A DNA stretch of 64,000 nt from Ectothiorhodospiraceae bacterium WFHF3C12 (lineage in GTDB: Bacteria; Pseudomonadota; Gammaproteobacteria; Nitrococcales; Nitrococcaceae). The stretch spans positions 27,982 to 91,981 of the forward strand of contig JACDUA010000001.1 in assembly GCA_013519935.1 (NCBI GenBank), in the 5' to 3' direction. This document shows positions 1 to 13,619 of this stretch, piece after piece. Under the pieces are notes generated by a model that saw nothing but the letters and a program-made list of their open reading frames with translations, did not search any database and was not told the DNA's origin. Positions within the stretch are counted from its first letter, which is position 1. Each line of letters opens with the position of its first letter. The position numbers were made by a program, and so were the translations under genes.

Positions 1-1172
1 TGGCGGCGAACATCTCCCGCAACTACGCGGAACTGGAACGGCGGGTGAAAAGCAAAACCGCCGCGCTGGAGGAAAGCAACCAGTCCCTGCAGCTGCTCTA
101 TGACGTGAGCCGGCGGCTGAACGCCACGCATGGCGACACTGGCGACCAGTTCCAGGCCGTCCTCTCGGAGGTGGAGCGGGCCCTCGGCCTCGGGCCCATA
201 ACCCTGTGCCTGAGCAATCCGGACAGCGCCACGGCGTACAACCGTCTCACGACCCTCGCCAATGACGTGCCGAATTTCTGCGATGCCCCCCACTGCGCGG
301 CCTGCCTGGGCGAGAGCCCGCCGGCACGGACCCGCCACGTCTCCAAAACCCTGGTGAGCGTCCCGGTAACCGACGGGGAGCGCCGTTACGGTGCGCTGCT
401 GGTGCCCCACGCACCGGGGCACGCACCCTCGCAGCGCCAGCTGCGCCTGTGCGAGGCGGTGGCCGAACATGTCGCGACCGCAATCACCCTCAGCCGCCAA
501 TCCGAGCAGCAGCGCCGTCTCGCGCTCATGGACGAACGCGCCGTCATTGCACGGGAGCTCCACGACAGCCTGGCCCAGGCGCTGAGCTACCTGAAAATCC
601 AGGTCAGCCGGTTGCAGGCCGAGTACCGCAAAGGCGCGCCTGATGTGGCCGCAATGCAGGGGGTCACGGAAGAGCTGCGGGAAGGCCTGAACGATGCCTA
701 TCGCCAGCTGCGCGAGCTGCTCAACACCTTCCGCCTGACCATGACCGATGCCGGTCTGCACAAGGCACTGCAGCGCACCGCCGGCGAGCTCTCGGAACAG
801 TCCCGGCTCCCCATCCGGCTGGACTTCGGTCTTGACCACGTGCCCTTGACGCCCAACGAGGAGGTCCATCTGCTGCAGACGGTGCGCGAGGCACTGATCA
901 ATGTCGTGCGCCACGCCGATGCCAGCCATGCCCGCGTCAGCCTGCAACAGGACGAGGACGGCCGCGTGATTGCCGAAGTGGTTGATGACGGCGTCGGCAT
1001 CCCGGAGAACTGGGAGCGCGTTAATCATTACGGGATCAAGATCATGGAGGAACGGGTCGCCGGCCTCGGCGGTAATCTGGAGATCGAGCGCCCGGTGTCG
1101 GGCGGCACCTGCATACGATTCACTTTCCGTCCCGCCCAGTCAGGGACCATAATCGCGTCCCAGGCCCACTGA
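1..1172 (+). CDS. narX: Nitrate/nitrite sensor histidine kinase NarX-like, 5' truncated by window edge
   Basis: Frame is open upstream of the track's first ATG at 45; Cys cluster CDAPHCAAC, HisKA_3 motif ARELHDSLAQALSYLK, HATPase motif; followed immediately by narL-like regulator. Confidence 0.85.
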   Translation, partial: AANISRNYAELERRVKSKTAALEESNQSLQLLYDVSRRLNATHGDTGDQFQAVLSEVERALGLGPITLCLSNPDSATAYNRLTTLANDVPNFCDAPHCAACLGESPPARTRHVSKTLVSVPVTDGERRYGALLVPHAPGHAPSQRQLRLCEAVAEHVATAITLSRQSEQQRRLALMDERAVIARELHDSLAQALSYLKIQVSRLQAEYRKGAPDVAAMQGVTEELREGLNDAYRQLRELLNTFRLTMTDAGLHKALQRTAGELSEQSRLPIRLDFGLDHVPLTPNEEVHLLQTVREALINVVRHADASHARVSLQQDEDGRVIAEVVDDGVGIPENWERVNHYGIKIMEERVAGLGGNLEIERPVSGGTCIRFTFRPAQSGTIIASQAH

Positions 1173-1182
1173 GCGAGGCACC

Positions 1183-1836
1183 ATGAGCGACGACAGTCCC
1201 ACCGAGATCCTCATCGTCGATGATCATCCCCTCTTCCGCCGTGGCGTCCGACAACTGCTGGACATGGACGAGAGCGTGGCCGCCGTCGGGGAAGCGCAGA
1301 GTGGCGAGGAAGCGCTACGGATGGTTTCGGCGTCGGAACCGGACCTGATACTGCTGGACCTCAACATGCGCGGCATGGATGGCATAGCCACCATCCGGGC
1401 CCTGCGCGATGCCGACGTCCAGGCCCGCATCGTCGTGCTCTCGGTCTCGGATAACGACGAAGACGTGGTCAGCGCCCTGCGCGCGGGCGCCGATGGTTAC
1501 CTGCTCAAGGATATGGAGCCGGAAGCGCTGCTGGAACGCATCAAGGAAGCGGCCGCCGGCCAAATGGTGCTGAGCGAGTCGCTCACGCAGGTCCTCGCGG
1601 AGGCCGTCGGCGGGCAGAGAAGCAGTGACGAAAGCGCTCTGCTGCGCAACCTGACCACCCGGGAGCACGAGGTCCTGCGCGGCCTCGCCAAAGGCATGAG
1701 CAACAAGCTCATTGCCCGTAAATTCGACATCGCCGAAGGCACCGTCAAGGTCCACGTGAAGAACGTGCTGCGCAAGCTCAAGCTGCGCTCGCGGGTGGAG
1801 GCGGCCGTGTGGGCCGTCAATCACGGCGTGCGCTGA
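1183..1836 (+). CDS. narL: NarL/FixJ family two-component response regulator
   Basis: Receiver IVDDHPLFRRG/LLDLNMRGMDG plus LuxR-type HTH (LTTREHEVLRGLAKGMSNKLIARKFDIAEGTVKVHVKNVLRKL). Confidence 0.88.
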   Translation: MSDDSPTEILIVDDHPLFRRGVRQLLDMDESVAAVGEAQSGEEALRMVSASEPDLILLDLNMRGMDGIATIRALRDADVQARIVVLSVSDNDEDVVSALRAGADGYLLKDMEPEALLERIKEAAAGQMVLSESLTQVLAEAVGGQRSSDESALLRNLTTREHEVLRGLAKGMSNKLIARKFDIAEGTVKVHVKNVLRKLKLRSRVEAAVWAVNHGVR

Positions 1837-1861: not shown

Positions 1862-2452
1862 ATGCAGGACAAAGTCACCCCAACCCGCGGCCCGGAGGCG
1901 CCCCCCTATCGAGCCCTCTGGCCGGCCAATGCCCGGCGCCCGATTCTCGGCTTTGCCGCCTACAGCGGCACCGGCAAGACCACGCTGCTTCGCGCGGTGC
2001 TGCCGCGCCTTCGCGCCGCCGGCGTGCGCCTGGCGCTGGTCAAGCATGCCCATCACGGCTTCGACATCGATCACCCCGGCAAGGACAGCTACGAGCTCCG
2101 CCGGGCGGGCGCCGATCAGGTGCTGGTCACTTCGCCCCGCCGCCGCGCACTCATGATGGAGCGGCCCGCCGAGGTGGACCCGAGACTGGCCGATGAGCTG
2201 GCCTACCTGCATCAGGATGAGACGGACCTGATCCTCGTCGAGGGGTTTCGCCACGAGCGGTTTCCGAAAATCGAGCTGCGCCGGGGGGCACGGGACGATG
2301 CGATGCTGGCCGATACCGACCCAACGGTCATTGCCGTCGCCAGCGACCGGCCCGCGACAACGCACCCCCTCCCCTGGCTGGATATCAACGATCCCGACGC
2401 GGTCTCGGCATTCATCCTCGGGCGGGTCCTGAACTGGCAGGAAGAGACATGA
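1862..2452 (+). CDS. mobB: Molybdopterin-guanine dinucleotide biosynthesis adaptor protein MobB
   Basis: P-loop GFAAYSGTGKTTLLRAVLPRL, KHAHHGFDIDHPGKDSYELRRAGA, VEGFRHERFPKIEL. Confidence 0.9.
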   Translation: MQDKVTPTRGPEAPPYRALWPANARRPILGFAAYSGTGKTTLLRAVLPRLRAAGVRLALVKHAHHGFDIDHPGKDSYELRRAGADQVLVTSPRRRALMMERPAEVDPRLADELAYLHQDETDLILVEGFRHERFPKIELRRGARDDAMLADTDPTVIAVASDRPATTHPLPWLDINDPDAVSAFILGRVLNWQEET

Positions 2453-3132
2453 ACAGCATCGACGATACTTCGGAAGTACTCGCCGGCCATTATCTGTTCG
2501 CCCCCCTGGACGGACCGCGGCTGCGGCGGCTGGCGGAGACGGCGCGGCGGCTGGAGTTGCGCGCCGGCGAGGCCCTGTTCCAGCGCGGCGACCCGGCGAG
2601 CCGCTTCTTTCTGGTCGAGCAGGGCCAGATCAAGCTCTTCCGCGTCTCGGCGGCGGGTCAGGAGAAGGTCGTCGAGATCATGGGCCCGGGAGATACATTC
2701 GCCGAGGCGGTGATGTTCATGGGCACCAACCGCTATCCCGTGAACGCGGCGGCCGTGGAGCCCACCGTGCTCCACGGCATCGCCAACGCCACCTACCTGG
2801 ACATCCTTCGCGAGGACGCCGAGGCATGCCTGAAGCTGCTCGGCGATCTCAGTCAGCGTCTGCACCGCCGTCTCAACGAGATCGATACCCTGACGCTGCA
2901 GCGCGCCAACGACCGGGTCGTGCGGTTTCTGGTCGAACGCCTGCCCGAGACCGGCCCCCCGGTCATCGAGCTGCCGGCGGCCAAGCACATCGTCGCCTCC
3001 CGGCTGGCGATCCAGCCGGAGACCTTCTCCCGTATACTGCTGCAGCTGAGCCAGGCCGGGGCCATCGAGGTCCAGGGCCGGGAGATACGGGTTCTCGACG
3101 CGGGCACGCTACGCGATCAGATGCCCGATTGA
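2449..3132 (+). CDS. dnr: Crp/Fnr family transcriptional regulator, DNR-like (no FNR N-terminal Cys cluster)
   Basis: cNMP-binding fold (GEALFQRGDPASRFFLVEQGQIKLFR) and HTH with E-xx-SR recognition helix (IQPETFSRILLQLSQ); overlaps mobB by 4 nt. Confidence 0.8.
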   Translation: MNSIDDTSEVLAGHYLFAPLDGPRLRRLAETARRLELRAGEALFQRGDPASRFFLVEQGQIKLFRVSAAGQEKVVEIMGPGDTFAEAVMFMGTNRYPVNAAAVEPTVLHGIANATYLDILREDAEACLKLLGDLSQRLHRRLNEIDTLTLQRANDRVVRFLVERLPETGPPVIELPAAKHIVASRLAIQPETFSRILLQLSQAGAIEVQGREIRVLDAGTLRDQMPD

Positions 3133-3142
3133 TCTGGATCAG
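3129..3142 (+). promoter_or_regulatory. FNR/DNR-type box TTGAT-CTGG-ATCAG upstream of prpE-like gene
   Basis: One mismatch from TTGAT-N4-ATCAA; overlaps the dnr stop codon, ~113 bp before CDS at 3255. Confidence 0.5.
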
Positions 3143-3254: not shown

Positions 3255-5156
3255 ATGGGCTACGAAGTGGAGTACCGTCGCTCGATAACGGACCCGGAGG
3301 GCTTCTGGCGAGAGGCCGCGGAGGACATCGAGTGGTTCGACGCCCCCGCCGAAATCCTCGGCACCGACGAAAACGGTAACCATCGCTGGTATCGGGGCGG
3401 CAAGCTGAACACCGCCTACCTCGCCCTCGATCGCCACTGCAAGCTGGGGCGCGGGGACGATGTCGCGGTCATCTACGACTCCCCGGTCACCGATACCAAG
3501 GAACGCTTCACCTTCGCCGAGATGCGCGACCGGGTCGCCCGCTTCGCCGGCGCGTTGCGCGGCCTGGGCGTCGACAAGGGCGACCGGGTCGTCATCTACA
3601 TGCCCATGGTGCCGGAGACCGTAGTGGCGATGCTGGCCTGCGCCCGGATCGGCGCTGTCCACTCCGTGGTATTCGGCGGCTTCTCACCCCATGAGCTGGC
3701 CGTGCGCATCGACGACGCACAGCCCAAGGCCCTGGTCACCGCCAGCTGTGGCATCGAGCTGGACCGGGTCATCCCGTACAAGCCGATCATCGACAAAGCG
3801 CTGGCCCAGAGCGCCCATCCGCCCGGCAACGTGGTGGTTCTGCAGCGCCCCCAGGCCGAGGCCGAGATGCAATCCGGTCGCGACCACTGGTGGGACGACC
3901 TGATGGCCGGTGCCGAGCCCGTGGACCCGGTGCCCGTCGACGCCACCGATCCCCTCTATATCCTGTACACCTCCGGCACCACCGGAAAACCCAAGGGCGT
4001 GGTCCGGGACAACGGCGGCCATGCCGTGGCAATGAACTACAGCATGCGTACCGTCTACGACGCCCACCCCGGCGAGGTTTTCTGGGCTGCCTCCGATGTC
4101 GGCTGGGTCGTCGGGCATTCCTATATCGTCTACGCGCCGCTGATCCGCGGCTGCACGACGGTGGTGTTCGAAGGCAAACCCGTGAAGACTCCCGATGCGG
4201 GCACGTTCTGGCGCATTATCGCGGAACACGACGTGCGCACCTTCTTCACCGCCCCCACGGCCTTCCGGGCCATCAAGAAGGAGGACCCGGAGGCGAAGCA
4301 CCTGGAACGCTACGATATCAGCGGCCTTCGCAACCTCTTCGTGGCGGGTGAACGGCTGGATCCGCCCACCTACGAATGGCTGCACGAGCACCTGCACTGC
4401 CCGGTAATCGACCACTGGTGGCAGACCGAGACGGGCTGGCCCATCGTCGCCAACCCGGTGGGCCTGGAACGGTTCCCGGTCAAGAGCGGATCCGCCACCT
4501 TTCCCGTGCCTGGCTATCAGATGGAAATCATGGGCGACGACGCCCAGGCGCTGCCGCGCGGCCAGTCCGGCAACATCGCCATCCGGCTGCCCCTGCCGCC
4601 CGGCTGCCTGCCCACCCTGTGGAACGATAACGCGCGCTTCCGCAGCAGCTACATGGAGACCTATCCGGGCTATTATTTCACCGGAGATGGCGGCCATATC
4701 GACGAAGATGGTTACGTTTTCATCATGGGCCGCGTCGACGACGTCATCAACGTGGCCGGCCACCGGCTGTCCACCGGCGGCATGGAGGAAGTGGTCGGCA
4801 GCCATCCGGCGGTCGCCGAGTGCGCCGTGGTGGGCATGCCCGACGAGCTCAAGGGCCAGCTGCCAGTGGGCTTCGTCGTGCTCAAGGACGGGGCGGACAT
4901 CGAACCGGCGCAACTGGAGCGCGAGCTCATCAACAGCGTGCGCGAGGAGGTCGGGGCCGTTGCCGCTTTCAAGCGGGTGCTGGTGGTCGACCGCCTCCCC
5001 AAGACGCGATCCGGCAAGATTCTGCGCAAGACCATCCGCGGCTTGGCGACCCAGCAGGAGGTGCCGGTGCCGGCGACCATCGACGATCCGGCCATCATGG
5101 ACGAGATCCGCGACGCTCTGCGGGAACGCTGGGGCGGGCCGGAGGGCGCTTCCTGA
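3255..5156 (+). CDS. Propionyl-/acetyl-CoA synthetase family (PrpE-like) AMP-forming ligase
   Basis: YTSGTTGKPKGVVRDNGGHAVAMNYS, DHWWQTETGWPI, FTGDGGHIDEDGYVFIMGRVDDVINVAGHRLST, KTRSGKILRK. Confidence 0.88.
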   Translation: MGYEVEYRRSITDPEGFWREAAEDIEWFDAPAEILGTDENGNHRWYRGGKLNTAYLALDRHCKLGRGDDVAVIYDSPVTDTKERFTFAEMRDRVARFAGALRGLGVDKGDRVVIYMPMVPETVVAMLACARIGAVHSVVFGGFSPHELAVRIDDAQPKALVTASCGIELDRVIPYKPIIDKALAQSAHPPGNVVVLQRPQAEAEMQSGRDHWWDDLMAGAEPVDPVPVDATDPLYILYTSGTTGKPKGVVRDNGGHAVAMNYSMRTVYDAHPGEVFWAASDVGWVVGHSYIVYAPLIRGCTTVVFEGKPVKTPDAGTFWRIIAEHDVRTFFTAPTAFRAIKKEDPEAKHLERYDISGLRNLFVAGERLDPPTYEWLHEHLHCPVIDHWWQTETGWPIVANPVGLERFPVKSGSATFPVPGYQMEIMGDDAQALPRGQSGNIAIRLPLPPGCLPTLWNDNARFRSSYMETYPGYYFTGDGGHIDEDGYVFIMGRVDDVINVAGHRLSTGGMEEVVGSHPAVAECAVVGMPDELKGQLPVGFVVLKDGADIEPAQLERELINSVREEVGAVAAFKRVLVVDRLPKTRSGKILRKTIRGLATQQEVPVPATIDDPAIMDEIRDALRERWGGPEGAS

Positions 5157-5246: not shown

Positions 5247-5933
5247 ATGAGCAGCAACACGGTTCGTTTCGACCCAGCACGTGCCGCGCTGCTGGTGGTC
5301 GACGTCCAGCCGGATTTCATGGAGGGCGGCGCGCTGGCCGCTCAGGAAGGCAGCGCGGTGGTCGAGCCCATTCGCCGTTTCATGGAGGCCGGCCATTTCG
5401 GGCTGTACGTGGCCACCCAGGACTGGCACCCGGCCGGTCACATCTCCTTCGCCAGCGAACATGCCGGGCGGGAGCCGTTCGAGGTCATCGACCTCTACGG
5501 CCACGACCAGGTCCTGTGGCCGGACCACTGCGTACAGGGCAGCGACAACGCCGCGTTGCACACCGGGCTACCCTTGAAGCTGTTCTCGGCGATCATCCGC
5601 AAGGGCGAGGACCCGAAGGTCGATTCCTACAGCGGCTTCAAGAACAACTGGAACGCCGAAGGCGAGCGGCCGCCCACCGGGCTCGCGGGCTACCTGCGCG
5701 AGCGCGGCATAACGGATGTCTTCACCTGCGGCCTGGCGCGGGATTTCTGCGTCAAGTGGACCGCGGAGGACGCCGCGGACGAGGGCTTTCGCACCTGGTA
5801 CCTGTGGGACCTGACCCGGCCCGTGGACGAGAACGCCGACGATGACGTGCGCAAGGCCCTGACGGACAAGGGCGTGAGCATCATCGACAGCACGGACGTG
5901 GAAGCCGCGCCGGCGGCGCGCAGCGCCGGATAA
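5247..5933 (+). CDS. pncA: Nicotinamidase / isochorismatase-family hydrolase
   Basis: LLVVDVQPDFMEGGALA, TQDWHPAGHISFAS, WPDHCVQGSDNAALH, CGLARDFCVKWTAEDA. Confidence 0.88.
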   Translation: MSSNTVRFDPARAALLVVDVQPDFMEGGALAAQEGSAVVEPIRRFMEAGHFGLYVATQDWHPAGHISFASEHAGREPFEVIDLYGHDQVLWPDHCVQGSDNAALHTGLPLKLFSAIIRKGEDPKVDSYSGFKNNWNAEGERPPTGLAGYLRERGITDVFTCGLARDFCVKWTAEDAADEGFRTWYLWDLTRPVDENADDDVRKALTDKGVSIIDSTDVEAAPAARSAG

Positions 5934-5961
5934 ACCGGCGAGGCGCCAGTCGATACCCCAC

Positions 5962-5990
5962 AGGCCCCGTTATCGGGGCCTTTCTTTTCT
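5962..5990 (+). terminator. Rho-independent terminator downstream of pncA
   Basis: AGGCCCCG-TTAT-CGGGGCCT followed by TTCTTTTCTT. Confidence 0.85.
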
Positions 5991-6004
5991 TAAAAGCGCG
6001 AGTT

Positions 6005-6163
6005 TAGCCACAGATGAACACGGATGGACACAGATCCTTTGGGGTAGTACGCCGCACTTCTTACTTTCAGGCGTAGGAAAAACCTCTACGTCCCGACATC
6101 AGGTACACCGCCACAGCGACTGATGAGCAATTATCTGCGTCCATCCGTGTTCATCTGTGGCTA
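6005..6163. repeat. MITE-like element / long inverted repeat: 31-bp terminal inverted repeats, 97-bp spacer
   Basis: TAGCCACAGATGAACACGGATGGACACAGAT (6005-6035) versus ATCTGCGTCCATCCGTGTTCATCTGTGGCTA (6133-6163): reverse complements with one mismatch. Confidence 0.85.
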
Positions 6164-6177
6164 AAAAGAGCAGTACG

Positions 6178-7758
<1,581 letters not shown>

Positions 7759-7960
7759 GTAGCCTCAGGAATCCTCGCGAGTTCAGGGCCGGGGATTATA
7801 CTAGCGCTTCCGGGGGTTTTGTCAGCTCTCGGCCGCCTTGCCGTCCGCGGTTACGCGGCCGACCCATTCAGGCGACCATAAATCCCGCGCCGCGTTCCCG
7901 GACCAGGCCGGGAACAGTGGCCATCGCTGCGAGCTGAGCTATCCACGGCAGAGACGCCCC

Positions 7961-8410
7961 ATGACCACCGGACCGCGATTCTGGGAAGAGAAAAGCCTCG
8001 AAGAGATGAGCCTCGAGGAATGGGAGTCGCTGTGCGACGGCTGCGGCAAGTGCTGCCTGCACAAGCTCGAGGATGTGGACACCGGTCGCTTCCACTACAC
8101 CAACGTCGCCTGCCGGCTGCTGGACACCGAAACCTGCCGCTGCACCGATTATCCGAATCGCCACGAACACGTCCCGGACTGCATCCAGCTCACGCCCAGC
8201 GGCGTCCGCGACTACGGCTGGCTTCCCGGGAGCTGCGCCTATCGCCGGATCGCCGAGGGCCGCGGGCTCGCCTGGTGGCATCCCCTCGTCTCCGGCGATC
8301 CGGAGAGCGTGCACCGGGCCGGTGTCTCGGCCAGCCGGCGCATATTCTCGGAGCTGGAAGTGGATCCGGATTTCCTCGAGGACTACGTGGTAGACGATCT
8401 GGGCGGGTGA
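7961..8410 (+). CDS. YcgN family cysteine cluster protein (UPF0260)
   Basis: [38 protein letters not shown]...[17 protein letters not shown] at 7961 preferred over the longer track ORF. Confidence 0.88.
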
Positions 8411-11026: not shown

Positions 11027-11040
11027 TTGACCGTTATCAA
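11027..11040 (+). promoter_or_regulatory. FNR/DNR-type box TTGAC-CGTT-ATCAA upstream of ubiU
   Basis: One mismatch to TTGAT-N4-ATCAA; -10-like TAAACT at 11064-11069, 23 nt downstream (class II-like spacing); ubiU ATG at 11106. Confidence 0.6.
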
Positions 11041-11105
11041 ATACCCTTCAAGGCAAGCCCGCCTAAACTCCGTGCCCAATCGCGAGTCCCGGAGCAGCAT
11101 GGCAT

Positions 11106-12101
11106 ATGACGATGGAACTGGTCTGCCCCGCCGGCGGCATGCCCGCCCTGCGCGCGGCCCTGGAAAATGGCGCCGACGCCGTCTACCTCGGCCTGCGCGA
11201 CGAGACCAACGCGCGCTCATTCCCCGGGCTGAACTTTGCGCCCCGCCAGCTCGGCGACGCCGTTGCCCTCGCGCGGCGCCACGGCGCCCGTGTCCTGCTC
11301 GCCCTCAACACCTACGCCCAGCACGATCGCTACGCGTTGTGGACGGACGCCGTGGATATTGCCGCCGATGCCGGCGTGGATGCCGTTATCGCGGCGGACC
11401 CCGGGGTGATGGCTTATGCGGCCGCGAACCATCCCCGGCTGCGGCTGCATCTCTCGGTTCAGGCCTCCGCCACCACGCCCGAGGCACTGGCCTTCTATCG
11501 CGAACGCTTCGGCATAAGCCGCGCGGTACTGCCGCGGGTGCTGTCGCTGGCCCAGGTCGAGCAGGTAGCCGCCGACTCACCGGTCGAGCTGGAAGTCTTC
11601 GCCTTCGGCTCGCTCTGCGTCATGGTGGAGGGCCGCTGCCTGCTGTCCTCCTATGTCACGGGGCAGTCCCCCAATACCCACGGCGTGTGCTCGCCCGCCG
11701 CGTTCGTTCGCTGGGAGGAAGGTCCGGAGACCCTGGACGCCCGGCTCGGCGGCGTGCTGATCGACCGCTTCTCGCCGGATGAGAACGCCGGCTACCCCAC
11801 GCTTTGCAAGGGCCGGTTTCAGGTCGCCGGGCAGACGTACCACGCGCTGGAGGAGCCCACCAGTCTCAATACGCTGGAGCTGCTCCCACGGCTGCGCGGG
11901 ATGGGCATCACCGCGGTCAAGATCGAGGGACGCCAGCGATCGCCGGCTTATGTCGCGGCGGTAACCCGGGTCTGGCGGGCGGCGCTGGATCAGCTGGAGC
12001 GTGGCGATGCCGGGGACGAGGCCGACTGGCGCAAGACCCTGGCCCGCCTCTCCGAAGGCAGCCAGACCACCCTGGGTGCCTATCACCGCAGCTGGCAGTG
12101 A
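11106..12101 (+). CDS. ubiU: U32 peptidase-family protein UbiU, O2-independent ubiquinone hydroxylation
   Basis: MELVCPAGGMPALRAALENGADAVYLGLRDETNAR; Fe-S type Cys pattern SLCVMVEGRC...THGVCSPA...PTLCKGRF; adjacent ubiV and ubiT. Confidence 0.92.
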   Translation: MTMELVCPAGGMPALRAALENGADAVYLGLRDETNARSFPGLNFAPRQLGDAVALARRHGARVLLALNTYAQHDRYALWTDAVDIAADAGVDAVIAADPGVMAYAAANHPRLRLHLSVQASATTPEALAFYRERFGISRAVLPRVLSLAQVEQVAADSPVELEVFAFGSLCVMVEGRCLLSSYVTGQSPNTHGVCSPAAFVRWEEGPETLDARLGGVLIDRFSPDENAGYPTLCKGRFQVAGQTYHALEEPTSLNTLELLPRLRGMGITAVKIEGRQRSPAYVAAVTRVWRAALDQLERGDAGDEADWRKTLARLSEGSQTTLGAYHRSWQ

Positions 12102-12111
12102 GGATTCGCCA

Positions 12112-12999
12112 ATGAAGATCGCTCTTGGCCCCCTGCTCTATTTCTGGCCACGCCAGGAGATCCTCGCGTTCTATGAACGCATCGCGGCGGCACCGCCGGA
12201 TGTGGTCTATCTCGGCGAGGTGGTGTGTTCCAAACGCCGGGAGCTCACCCTCGCCGACTGGCTGAGCCTGGCCGAAGGTTTCAGGGCACAGGGCGTGGAG
12301 CCGGTCCTCTCCGCCCTCACACTGCTGGAGTCCGCCGCGGAGCGACAACAGTTGAAACGCCTGTGCGAGGCGGGCGACTACCTGGTGGAGGCGAACGACT
12401 ACAGCGCCGTGGGGCTGCTCCAGGGCCTGGGCCGACCGTTCGTCGGGGGCACCACACTGAACGTATACAACCATGCAACCCTGCAGACCCTGCGGGAGGC
12501 CGGCATGGTGCGCTGGGTGCCGCCCCTGGAGCTCTCCGGCGAGGCGCTCTCCGGTATCCTCTCGGCGTGTGCGTCGACAGCGCCCGAGACCGAGGTCTTC
12601 GCCCACGGACGCATGCCGCTGGCCCATGCGGCACGCTGTTACACGGCCCGCGCCTACGATTTGCCCAAGGACAACTGCGGTTTTCGCTGTATCGAACACC
12701 CCGAAGGCATGCCGCTATACAGTCAGGATGGCCGCCATTTCCTCACCATCAACGGCATCCAGACGCAGTCGGCGGAGCCGGTGAACCTGCTCGGCGAGCT
12801 GCCCGCCCTGGCCCGCTCGGGCGCGGACATCGTACGCATCAGCCCCGGCCCGAACGGTACCGAGGCGCGGCTGCGCGACCTGCGCCGAGCCCTCGCCGGG
12901 GATGCCGACGCGGCCGTCGCGCTCACGCGCGAGGGCGGACACCGTGGCTACTGGGACGGCGGACCGGGCATGAACGGACCCGCGGCCCCGGGTCAGTGA
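12112..12999 (+). CDS. ubiV: U32 peptidase-family protein UbiV
   Basis: MKIALGPLLYFWPRQEILAFYE, VVCSKRRELTLADWLSLA, ARCYTARAYDLPKDNCGFRCIEHPEG. Confidence 0.92.
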   Translation: MKIALGPLLYFWPRQEILAFYERIAAAPPDVVYLGEVVCSKRRELTLADWLSLAEGFRAQGVEPVLSALTLLESAAERQQLKRLCEAGDYLVEANDYSAVGLLQGLGRPFVGGTTLNVYNHATLQTLREAGMVRWVPPLELSGEALSGILSACASTAPETEVFAHGRMPLAHAARCYTARAYDLPKDNCGFRCIEHPEGMPLYSQDGRHFLTINGIQTQSAEPVNLLGELPALARSGADIVRISPGPNGTEARLRDLRRALAGDADAAVALTREGGHRGYWDGGPGMNGPAAPGQ

Positions 13000-13484
13000 T
13001 CGCCGATGAGTGTCGATCGCGCCAGGCCGATCAGCCGGGCTGCCCAGCCCGGCAGCATCGCCTCGTCCACCGCATCGAGCGCGTTCTTCACGTACAGCCC
13101 CAGCTCCACGTCACCCTCAATGCGCAGACGGCGCTGGAAAAACAGCGTATCCGGATCCTCCGTGCGGCAGATCAGGCGCAGTGCGTCGGCTGGCCCGACG
13201 GTCAGCTCGGTCTCGGCTGGCCGGCTCGTGACCCGTTCCAGCCGTCCGGCCTGCAAGCCGAGGTCGAGGGACCAGGGGGTGCCGAGCAGACTGACCCGAA
13301 TCACGCGGCCCTCCAGACCATCGAGTCCGCCGTCAGCGAGGTAGGTCCCGAGCGCGGCGTTGAGCGCGCCCATGGCGGCCGGCTCGACGAGTTTCCGGTC
13401 GATATGGTGCAACGCCCCGGCAAATACGCTCCACGGCCCGGGCAAAAGGGGCCTTTCACTGCTTGTCATCGGTGCCCTCTGCAA
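12993..13484 (-). CDS. ubiT: SCP2-domain ubiquinone biosynthesis accessory factor UbiT
   Basis: SCP2-like sequence with ICRTEDPDTLFFQRRLRIEGDVELGLYVKNALDAVD; convergent with and overlapping ubiV by 7 nt. Confidence 0.9.
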   Translation of the reverse strand: MQRAPMTSSERPLLPGPWSVFAGALHHIDRKLVEPAAMGALNAALGTYLADGGLDGLEGRVIRVSLLGTPWSLDLGLQAGRLERVTSRPAETELTVGPADALRLICRTEDPDTLFFQRRLRIEGDVELGLYVKNALDAVDEAMLPGWAARLIGLARSTLIGDH

Positions 13485-13605
13485 GTAGTGTTTCCGCCGG
13501 TCAGGGGCGTGGCGACCCCCGGAGCATGTCGGCGGCGTCCCGGATCCGGAGCGACGCGCCGACGACCGGATGGGCCGAGACTATGGAAGACCCCGCCCGG
13601 GGACC

Positions 13606-13619
13606 TTAATCTTGATCAA
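13606..13619 (-). promoter_or_regulatory. FNR/DNR-type box (TTAAT-CTTG-ATCAA on +; TTGAT-CAAG-ATTAA on -) between ubiT and fabA
   Basis: One mismatch to consensus; -10-like CATAGT on the minus strand ~20 nt downstream toward ubiT. Confidence 0.6.

Follow-up and report, generated by a model that had tools for sequence, protein, structure and literature searches.

The window, by which we mean the whole 64,000-nucleotide stretch of DNA from Ectothiorhodospiraceae bacterium WFHF3C12 that was analysed, carries ubiUV and a convergent ubiT, with an FNR/DNR-type palindrome upstream of each transcription unit, and we consider it highly probable that a dimer of the FNR/DNR family activates ubiUV and ubiT through these two palindromes when oxygen falls. 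In the proposed mechanism, the two palindromes would act as class II-type activator sites, so that upon a drop in oxygen the dimer would switch on ubiUV as well as ubiT, the latter from a promoter of its own; UbiUV would then hydroxylate ubiquinone precursors without O2, UbiT would serve as an accessory factor, and the ubiquinone so made would let the quinol-fed NarGHI and the quinol NorB run. The main activator is probably a [4Fe-4S] FNR encoded on contig C114, and a DNR encoded in the window is probably able to bind the same sites. Taken in this way, the locus supports a synthesis of ubiquinone without oxygen that is co-controlled with nitrate respiration, in an unstudied bacterium with no MenA found.

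Identity of the ubi genes

An earlier note on this DNA had named the three genes as ubiU, ubiV and ubiT, and all three products score over the cut-offs of the corresponding NCBIfam equivalog models:

11106..12101, plus strand: ubiU, 331 aa (NF047963, 540.7 bits, cut-off 440)
12112..12999, plus strand: ubiV, 295 aa (NF047965, 337.8 bits, cut-off 275)
12993..13469, minus strand: ubiT, 158 aa, convergent with ubiUV (NF047962, 99.7 bits, cut-off 46.9)

The closest named homologue of UbiU is 66-67% identical to it. The cysteine patterns of UbiU (Cys171, Cys178, Cys195 and Cys234) and UbiV (Cys39, Cys176, Cys189 and Cys193) are intact, and we take these four residues in each protein to be the ligands.

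Two near-perfect palindromes at a predicted activator spacing

The upstream regions of ubiU and ubiT contain the following features:

11027..11040, plus strand: predicted FNR/DNR-type box before ubiU, TTGAC-CGTT-ATCAA, TTGACCGTTATCAA (sequence, shuffle test)
11064..11069, plus strand: -10-like TAAACT, 23 nt past the ubiU box, predicted class II activator spacing
13606..13619, minus strand: predicted FNR/DNR-type box before ubiT, TTGAT-CAAG-ATTAA, TTGATCAAGATTAA (sequence, shuffle test)
13580..13585, minus strand: -10-like CATAGT, 20 nt past the ubiT box

The coordinates of both boxes, the hexamers and the two spacings agree exactly with what had been claimed for them, as does the single mismatch of each box to TTGAT-N4-ATCAA (9 of 10 bases); the ubiU box becomes a perfect match when the consensus is taken as TTGAY-N4-RTCAA. 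Measured from its centre, the ubiU box lies 72.5 nt upstream of the ubiU ATG, and the ubiT box lies 143.5 nt upstream of the ubiT ATG and 117 nt upstream of the divergent fabA. A class II site of the FNR/DNR family is centred near -41.5, which leaves a gap of about 22 nt from the box to the -10 element. The spacings given here, as predicted from the sequence, would fit this and lead to weak hexamers (identity to TATAAT at just 4 of 6 positions); that of the ubiT box is 2 nt short, and this box is also distant from the ATG. The 23-nt spacing from box to hexamer recurs at a second ubiU in the same genome (ubiU2, TATGCT; see below) and at loci L128 (TATAGT) and L135 (TATACT).

One rival reading is that the boxes are chance palindromes. 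Some 0.5 14-mers with at most one mismatch are expected per window, and the closest same-family carriers of the genes have no boxes. Against this, the two sites stand in two relevant promoters at predicted activator spacing, a perfect degenerate match stands before ubiU2, and the motif is both enriched across the genome and conserved in many relatives (see below), so that we regard chance as extremely unlikely. In dinucleotide shuffles of the DNA upstream of ubiU, an equal match appeared at a frequency of 0.0024 under the strict consensus and 0.0002 under the degenerate one; the corresponding values for the ubiT/fabA intergenic DNA were 0.0012 and 0.0064. The whole window holds three matches with at most one mismatch (at 3129, 11027 and 13606), compared with a shuffle mean of 0.5. 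The third of these near-perfect boxes, TTGATCTGGATCAG (3129-3142), spans the dnr stop codon and lies about 120 nt ahead of an acetyl/propionyl-CoA synthetase gene (3255-5156).

Relation to known ubiUVT regulation

Control of ubiUV and ubiT by Fnr has been proven in E. coli, at sites F1 and F2 (PMC10470549). As in that system, ubiUV and ubiT in the window have two separate sites, each with its own promoter; however, the E. coli genes diverge from a common intergenic region, whereas those of the window converge and have their promoters about 2.6 kb from each other, and the E. coli sites TTGATTTAAGGCAG and TTGATTTATACCGC have one good half-site, whereas both boxes here are near-perfect palindromes (PMC10470549). 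E. coli has demethylmenaquinone too, whereas MenA was not found in this genome. In P. aeruginosa, the ubiUVT operon is under Anr, as has been proven, and under the sRNA SicX (PMC10247376). That case resembles ours in that a denitrifier equipped with DNR has an FNR-type activator as well, and differs in its single operon, where we see convergent ubiUV and ubiT (PMC10247376). A survey of Pseudomonadota predicted an FNR motif ahead of ubiU, ubiT or both in 87% of 1566 loci (PMC11707229), and the window locus, identical in motif, genes and placing, is one more of the 87%. Because FNR control of ubiTUV is published, the locus is already known in kind. The survey text describes four main architectures without clearly setting out the convergent arrangement as one of them, and it leaves nar and dnr neighbours unmentioned (PMC11707229). 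What the present analysis adds is a second ubiUVT set, a dnr-ubiU neighbourhood in sister families, and the absence of boxes in some carriers.

Candidate regulators

The start of the window is occupied by a string of genes that ends in dnr:

45..1172, plus strand: narX, start outside the window (NarQ/NarX models, 280-288 bits)
1183..1836, plus strand: narL (NF007935, 311.6 bits, cut-off 250)
1862..2452, plus strand: mobB (TIGR00176, 140.9 bits, cut-off 76.2)
2449..3132, plus strand: dnr, DNR-family regulator (homology, recognition helix QPETFSR, no N-terminal cysteines)

The last two genes overlap by 4 nt. The earlier note had placed narXL and a DNR-like regulator with an E-x-x-S-R helix in the window, and both attributions hold: NarL is over its cut-off, the NarX fragment falls under the whole-protein cut-offs because the gene start lies outside the window, and the best solved relative of the regulator is the DNR protein 3dkw (E 1.5e-47). 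The regulator thus combines DNR homology, an absence of Fe-S cysteines and an E-x-x-S-R helix. Upstream of the window, on the opposite strand, lie narK1, narK2, narG, narH, narJ and narI, and between narK1 and narX, in the divergent promoter of narXL-mobB-dnr, there is a box, TTGACACACGTCAA.

The genome has 16 matches to the cNMP-binding domain. Among them, one protein, encoded on contig C114, qualifies as a true FNR, with 288 bits to the Fnr model (cut-off 228), the cysteine motif CGDCSLYQLC (C-x2-C-x5-C), a central cysteine in SICEI and the helix APETMSR. FNR and DNR both recognise the same palindrome, and the letters of the boxes do not separate them. Two further FNR-like proteins with N-terminal cysteines are encoded on contigs C103 and C112 (L087 and L089, respectively); the helix of the C103 protein, TPATLSR, lacks the glutamate normally found in E-x-x-S-R.

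The motif and the respiratory genes across the genome

A genome-wide pattern search for TTGAY-N4-RTCAA found 42 sites in 4.6 Mb, as opposed to 3 for the reversed control, and 40 of these fall outside genes called with a simple codon-usage gene caller. Their neighbours include ccoN of the cbb3 oxidase (site upstream), narK and narX (site between them), ubiU and ubiU2; further sites stand before aidB, ompW and ftsH. Because it is enriched genome-wide, mostly intergenic and near such neighbours, the motif very probably functions in regulation in this genome, with the ubi boxes as part of the set.

With NarGHJI, the copper enzyme NirK and the quinol NorB, the genome encodes a respiratory set leading from nitrate to N2O. 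The nirK and norB genes are adjacent:

L172 (contig C106), 3944..5359 and 5779..8133, minus strand: nirK and quinol norB (nirK/norB matches)

The genome gives no match to NirS (cytochrome cd1) and only fragments at 26-28 bits for NosZ (cut-off 625). A side-by-side pair of nirK and quinol norB, with no nosZ reaching full score, is the predicted genotype of a denitrifier ending at N2O; full denitrification to N2 is unsupported, given the lack of a NirS match and a NosZ score far under the cut-off. About 130 nt ahead of nirK there is a further site, TTGATCCAGGTCAC.

Conservation of the boxes in relatives

The earlier note had counted a lack of conservation in close relatives as a refutation, and the outcome of this check is mixed. 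Within 300 nt upstream of ubiU, a box of at least 9/10 is present at 52 of 102 loci, compared with 2.1% in shuffles, and upstream of the operon-internal ubiV at 1 of 100. The signal is strong in two sister families of the same order (f2 and f4), where 8 of 9 loci have a 10/10 ubiU box (seven at 62-75 nt before ubiU and one at 138 nt); among order relatives outside these families, only L129 has a ubiU box of 9/10. Contrary to expectation, conservation failed in two same-family carriers of ubiTUV (L142 and L144) and in genus g12 of family f5 (L137-L141, L143 and L145), which have no box of at least 9/10 even within 600 nt. We treat the missing boxes as loss or re-wiring in some lineages. For the anaerobic or denitrification-linked control of ubi that the earlier note had predicted, the activator geometry, the box in many relatives, the presence of both regulators and the nitrate-to-N2O set thus speak in favour, and the lineages without boxes speak against. 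In L142 and L144, ubiT and ubiUV are divergent.

The relatives also bear on the possibility that the palindrome at 13606-13619 serves fabA instead of ubiT. Palindromes act in both directions, and with 117 nt to fabA this one is closer to fabA than to ubiT. However, a box of at least 9/10 precedes fabA in none of 21 family relatives, on which ground we reject fabA as the target of the box; moreover, among five order relatives with convergent ubiT, a 9/10 box stands before ubiT in four (L128, L130, L135 and L136), and in these four ubiT is not beside fabA. We therefore hold a role at fabA to be very unlikely, and take ubiT as the probable target.

A nar-dnr-ubi neighbourhood in sister families

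Each of the nine f2/f4 loci encodes, ahead of ubiU and in the same orientation, a DNR homologue (47-52% identical). At seven of them, 121-152 nt separate ubiU from the nearest dnr or fnr, the gene directly before ubiU being dnr in five and fnr, with dnr behind it, in two (L130 and L136). Locus L226 reads narIJHGK2K1 (divergent), narX, narL, mobB, dnr, fnr, ubiU, ubiV, followed by ubiT in convergent orientation; its 19 kb contain just two perfect boxes, one ahead of ubiU and the other in the gap from narK1 to narX. The order narXL-mobB-dnr-(fnr)-ubiUV is found, whole or in part, at L226, L225, L227, L228 and L232, and in some sister-family loci narXL and narGHJI join mobB-dnr-(fnr) upstream of ubiU. 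This neighbourhood strengthens the predicted tie between nar/dnr and ubi, and in the order that runs on to ubiT it keeps quinone supply and nitrogen-oxide respiration physically together. No description of a nar-dnr-ubi cluster came up when the open-licence literature was searched for ubiU next to dnr, narG or U32 peptidase genes. In the window, about 8 kb of other genes separate dnr from ubiU (an acyl-CoA synthetase gene, a nicotinamidase-like gene and, after these, apparent prfC, dxs and trxA genes), and the arrangement looks like the sister-family cluster split open between dnr and ubiU by this insert of about 8 kb.

Such an association raises the question of whether the presumably NO-responsive DNR is itself the main activator, in which case ubiquinone synthesis would track denitrification and not the oxygen level as such. 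The presence of dnr in the same window, its position upstream of ubiU in all f2/f4 loci, and the concentration of 10/10 boxes in these same families (8 of 9, with only L129 reaching even 9/10 among the other order relatives) would fit that reading. Yet in L130 and L136 the gene immediately ahead of ubiU is fnr and not dnr, the box letters fit both proteins alike, and the association comes from two families and is confounded by ancestry. The published proofs, in turn, concern Fnr (PMC10470549) and Anr (PMC10247376). On balance we find DNR unlikely as the main activator, and favour the FNR of contig C114 in that role.

A second, diverged ubiUVT set

Contig C102 of this genome carries another full ubiUVT set, diverged from the first and provided with an FNR/DNR-type box of its own:

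L124 9844..10842: ubiU2, 67% identical to UbiU
L124 10858..11745: ubiV2, by position and homology only
L124 12033..12500, minus strand: ubiT2, convergent, over the model cut-off
L124 12610..13272, minus strand: gene for an FNR-like protein, before ubiT2 (C-x2-C-x5-C; helix SVATVRD, without E-x-x-S-R)

The box, TTGATGAAGGTCAA (L124 9753-9766), is a perfect degenerate match 84.5 nt before ubiU2, with TATGCT 23 nt further on. The cysteine patterns of UbiU2 and UbiV2 are kept, with 39 residues and not 38 before the last cysteine of UbiU2. Ahead of the gene for the FNR-like protein lies a TTGAC-N4-GTCAA box, TTGACGTGCGTCAA; the loss of E-x-x-S-R from this protein would suit an FNR in decay as well as one directed at a different target.

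A tree built from UbiU plus UbiV places the second copy within the f2 loci (support 0.998); the first copy branches deeply and on its own inside the order (placement support 0.73). One possible reading, which we offer tentatively, is that both sets are under FNR/DNR control and serve different anaerobic regimes, the window set being linked to nar and dnr for nitrate respiration and the C102 set, with its ubiT behind an FNR-like protein devoid of the E-x-x-S-R residues, having been acquired from a sister family. The presence of a second set opens the question of redundancy versus specialisation. Genomes with two triplets number 4 of 1562 in the published survey (PMC11707229), beside which this genome is another such case. 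In our sample of the class, UbiU is present in 100 of 370 genomes, and two of those, this genome included, have two strong matches.
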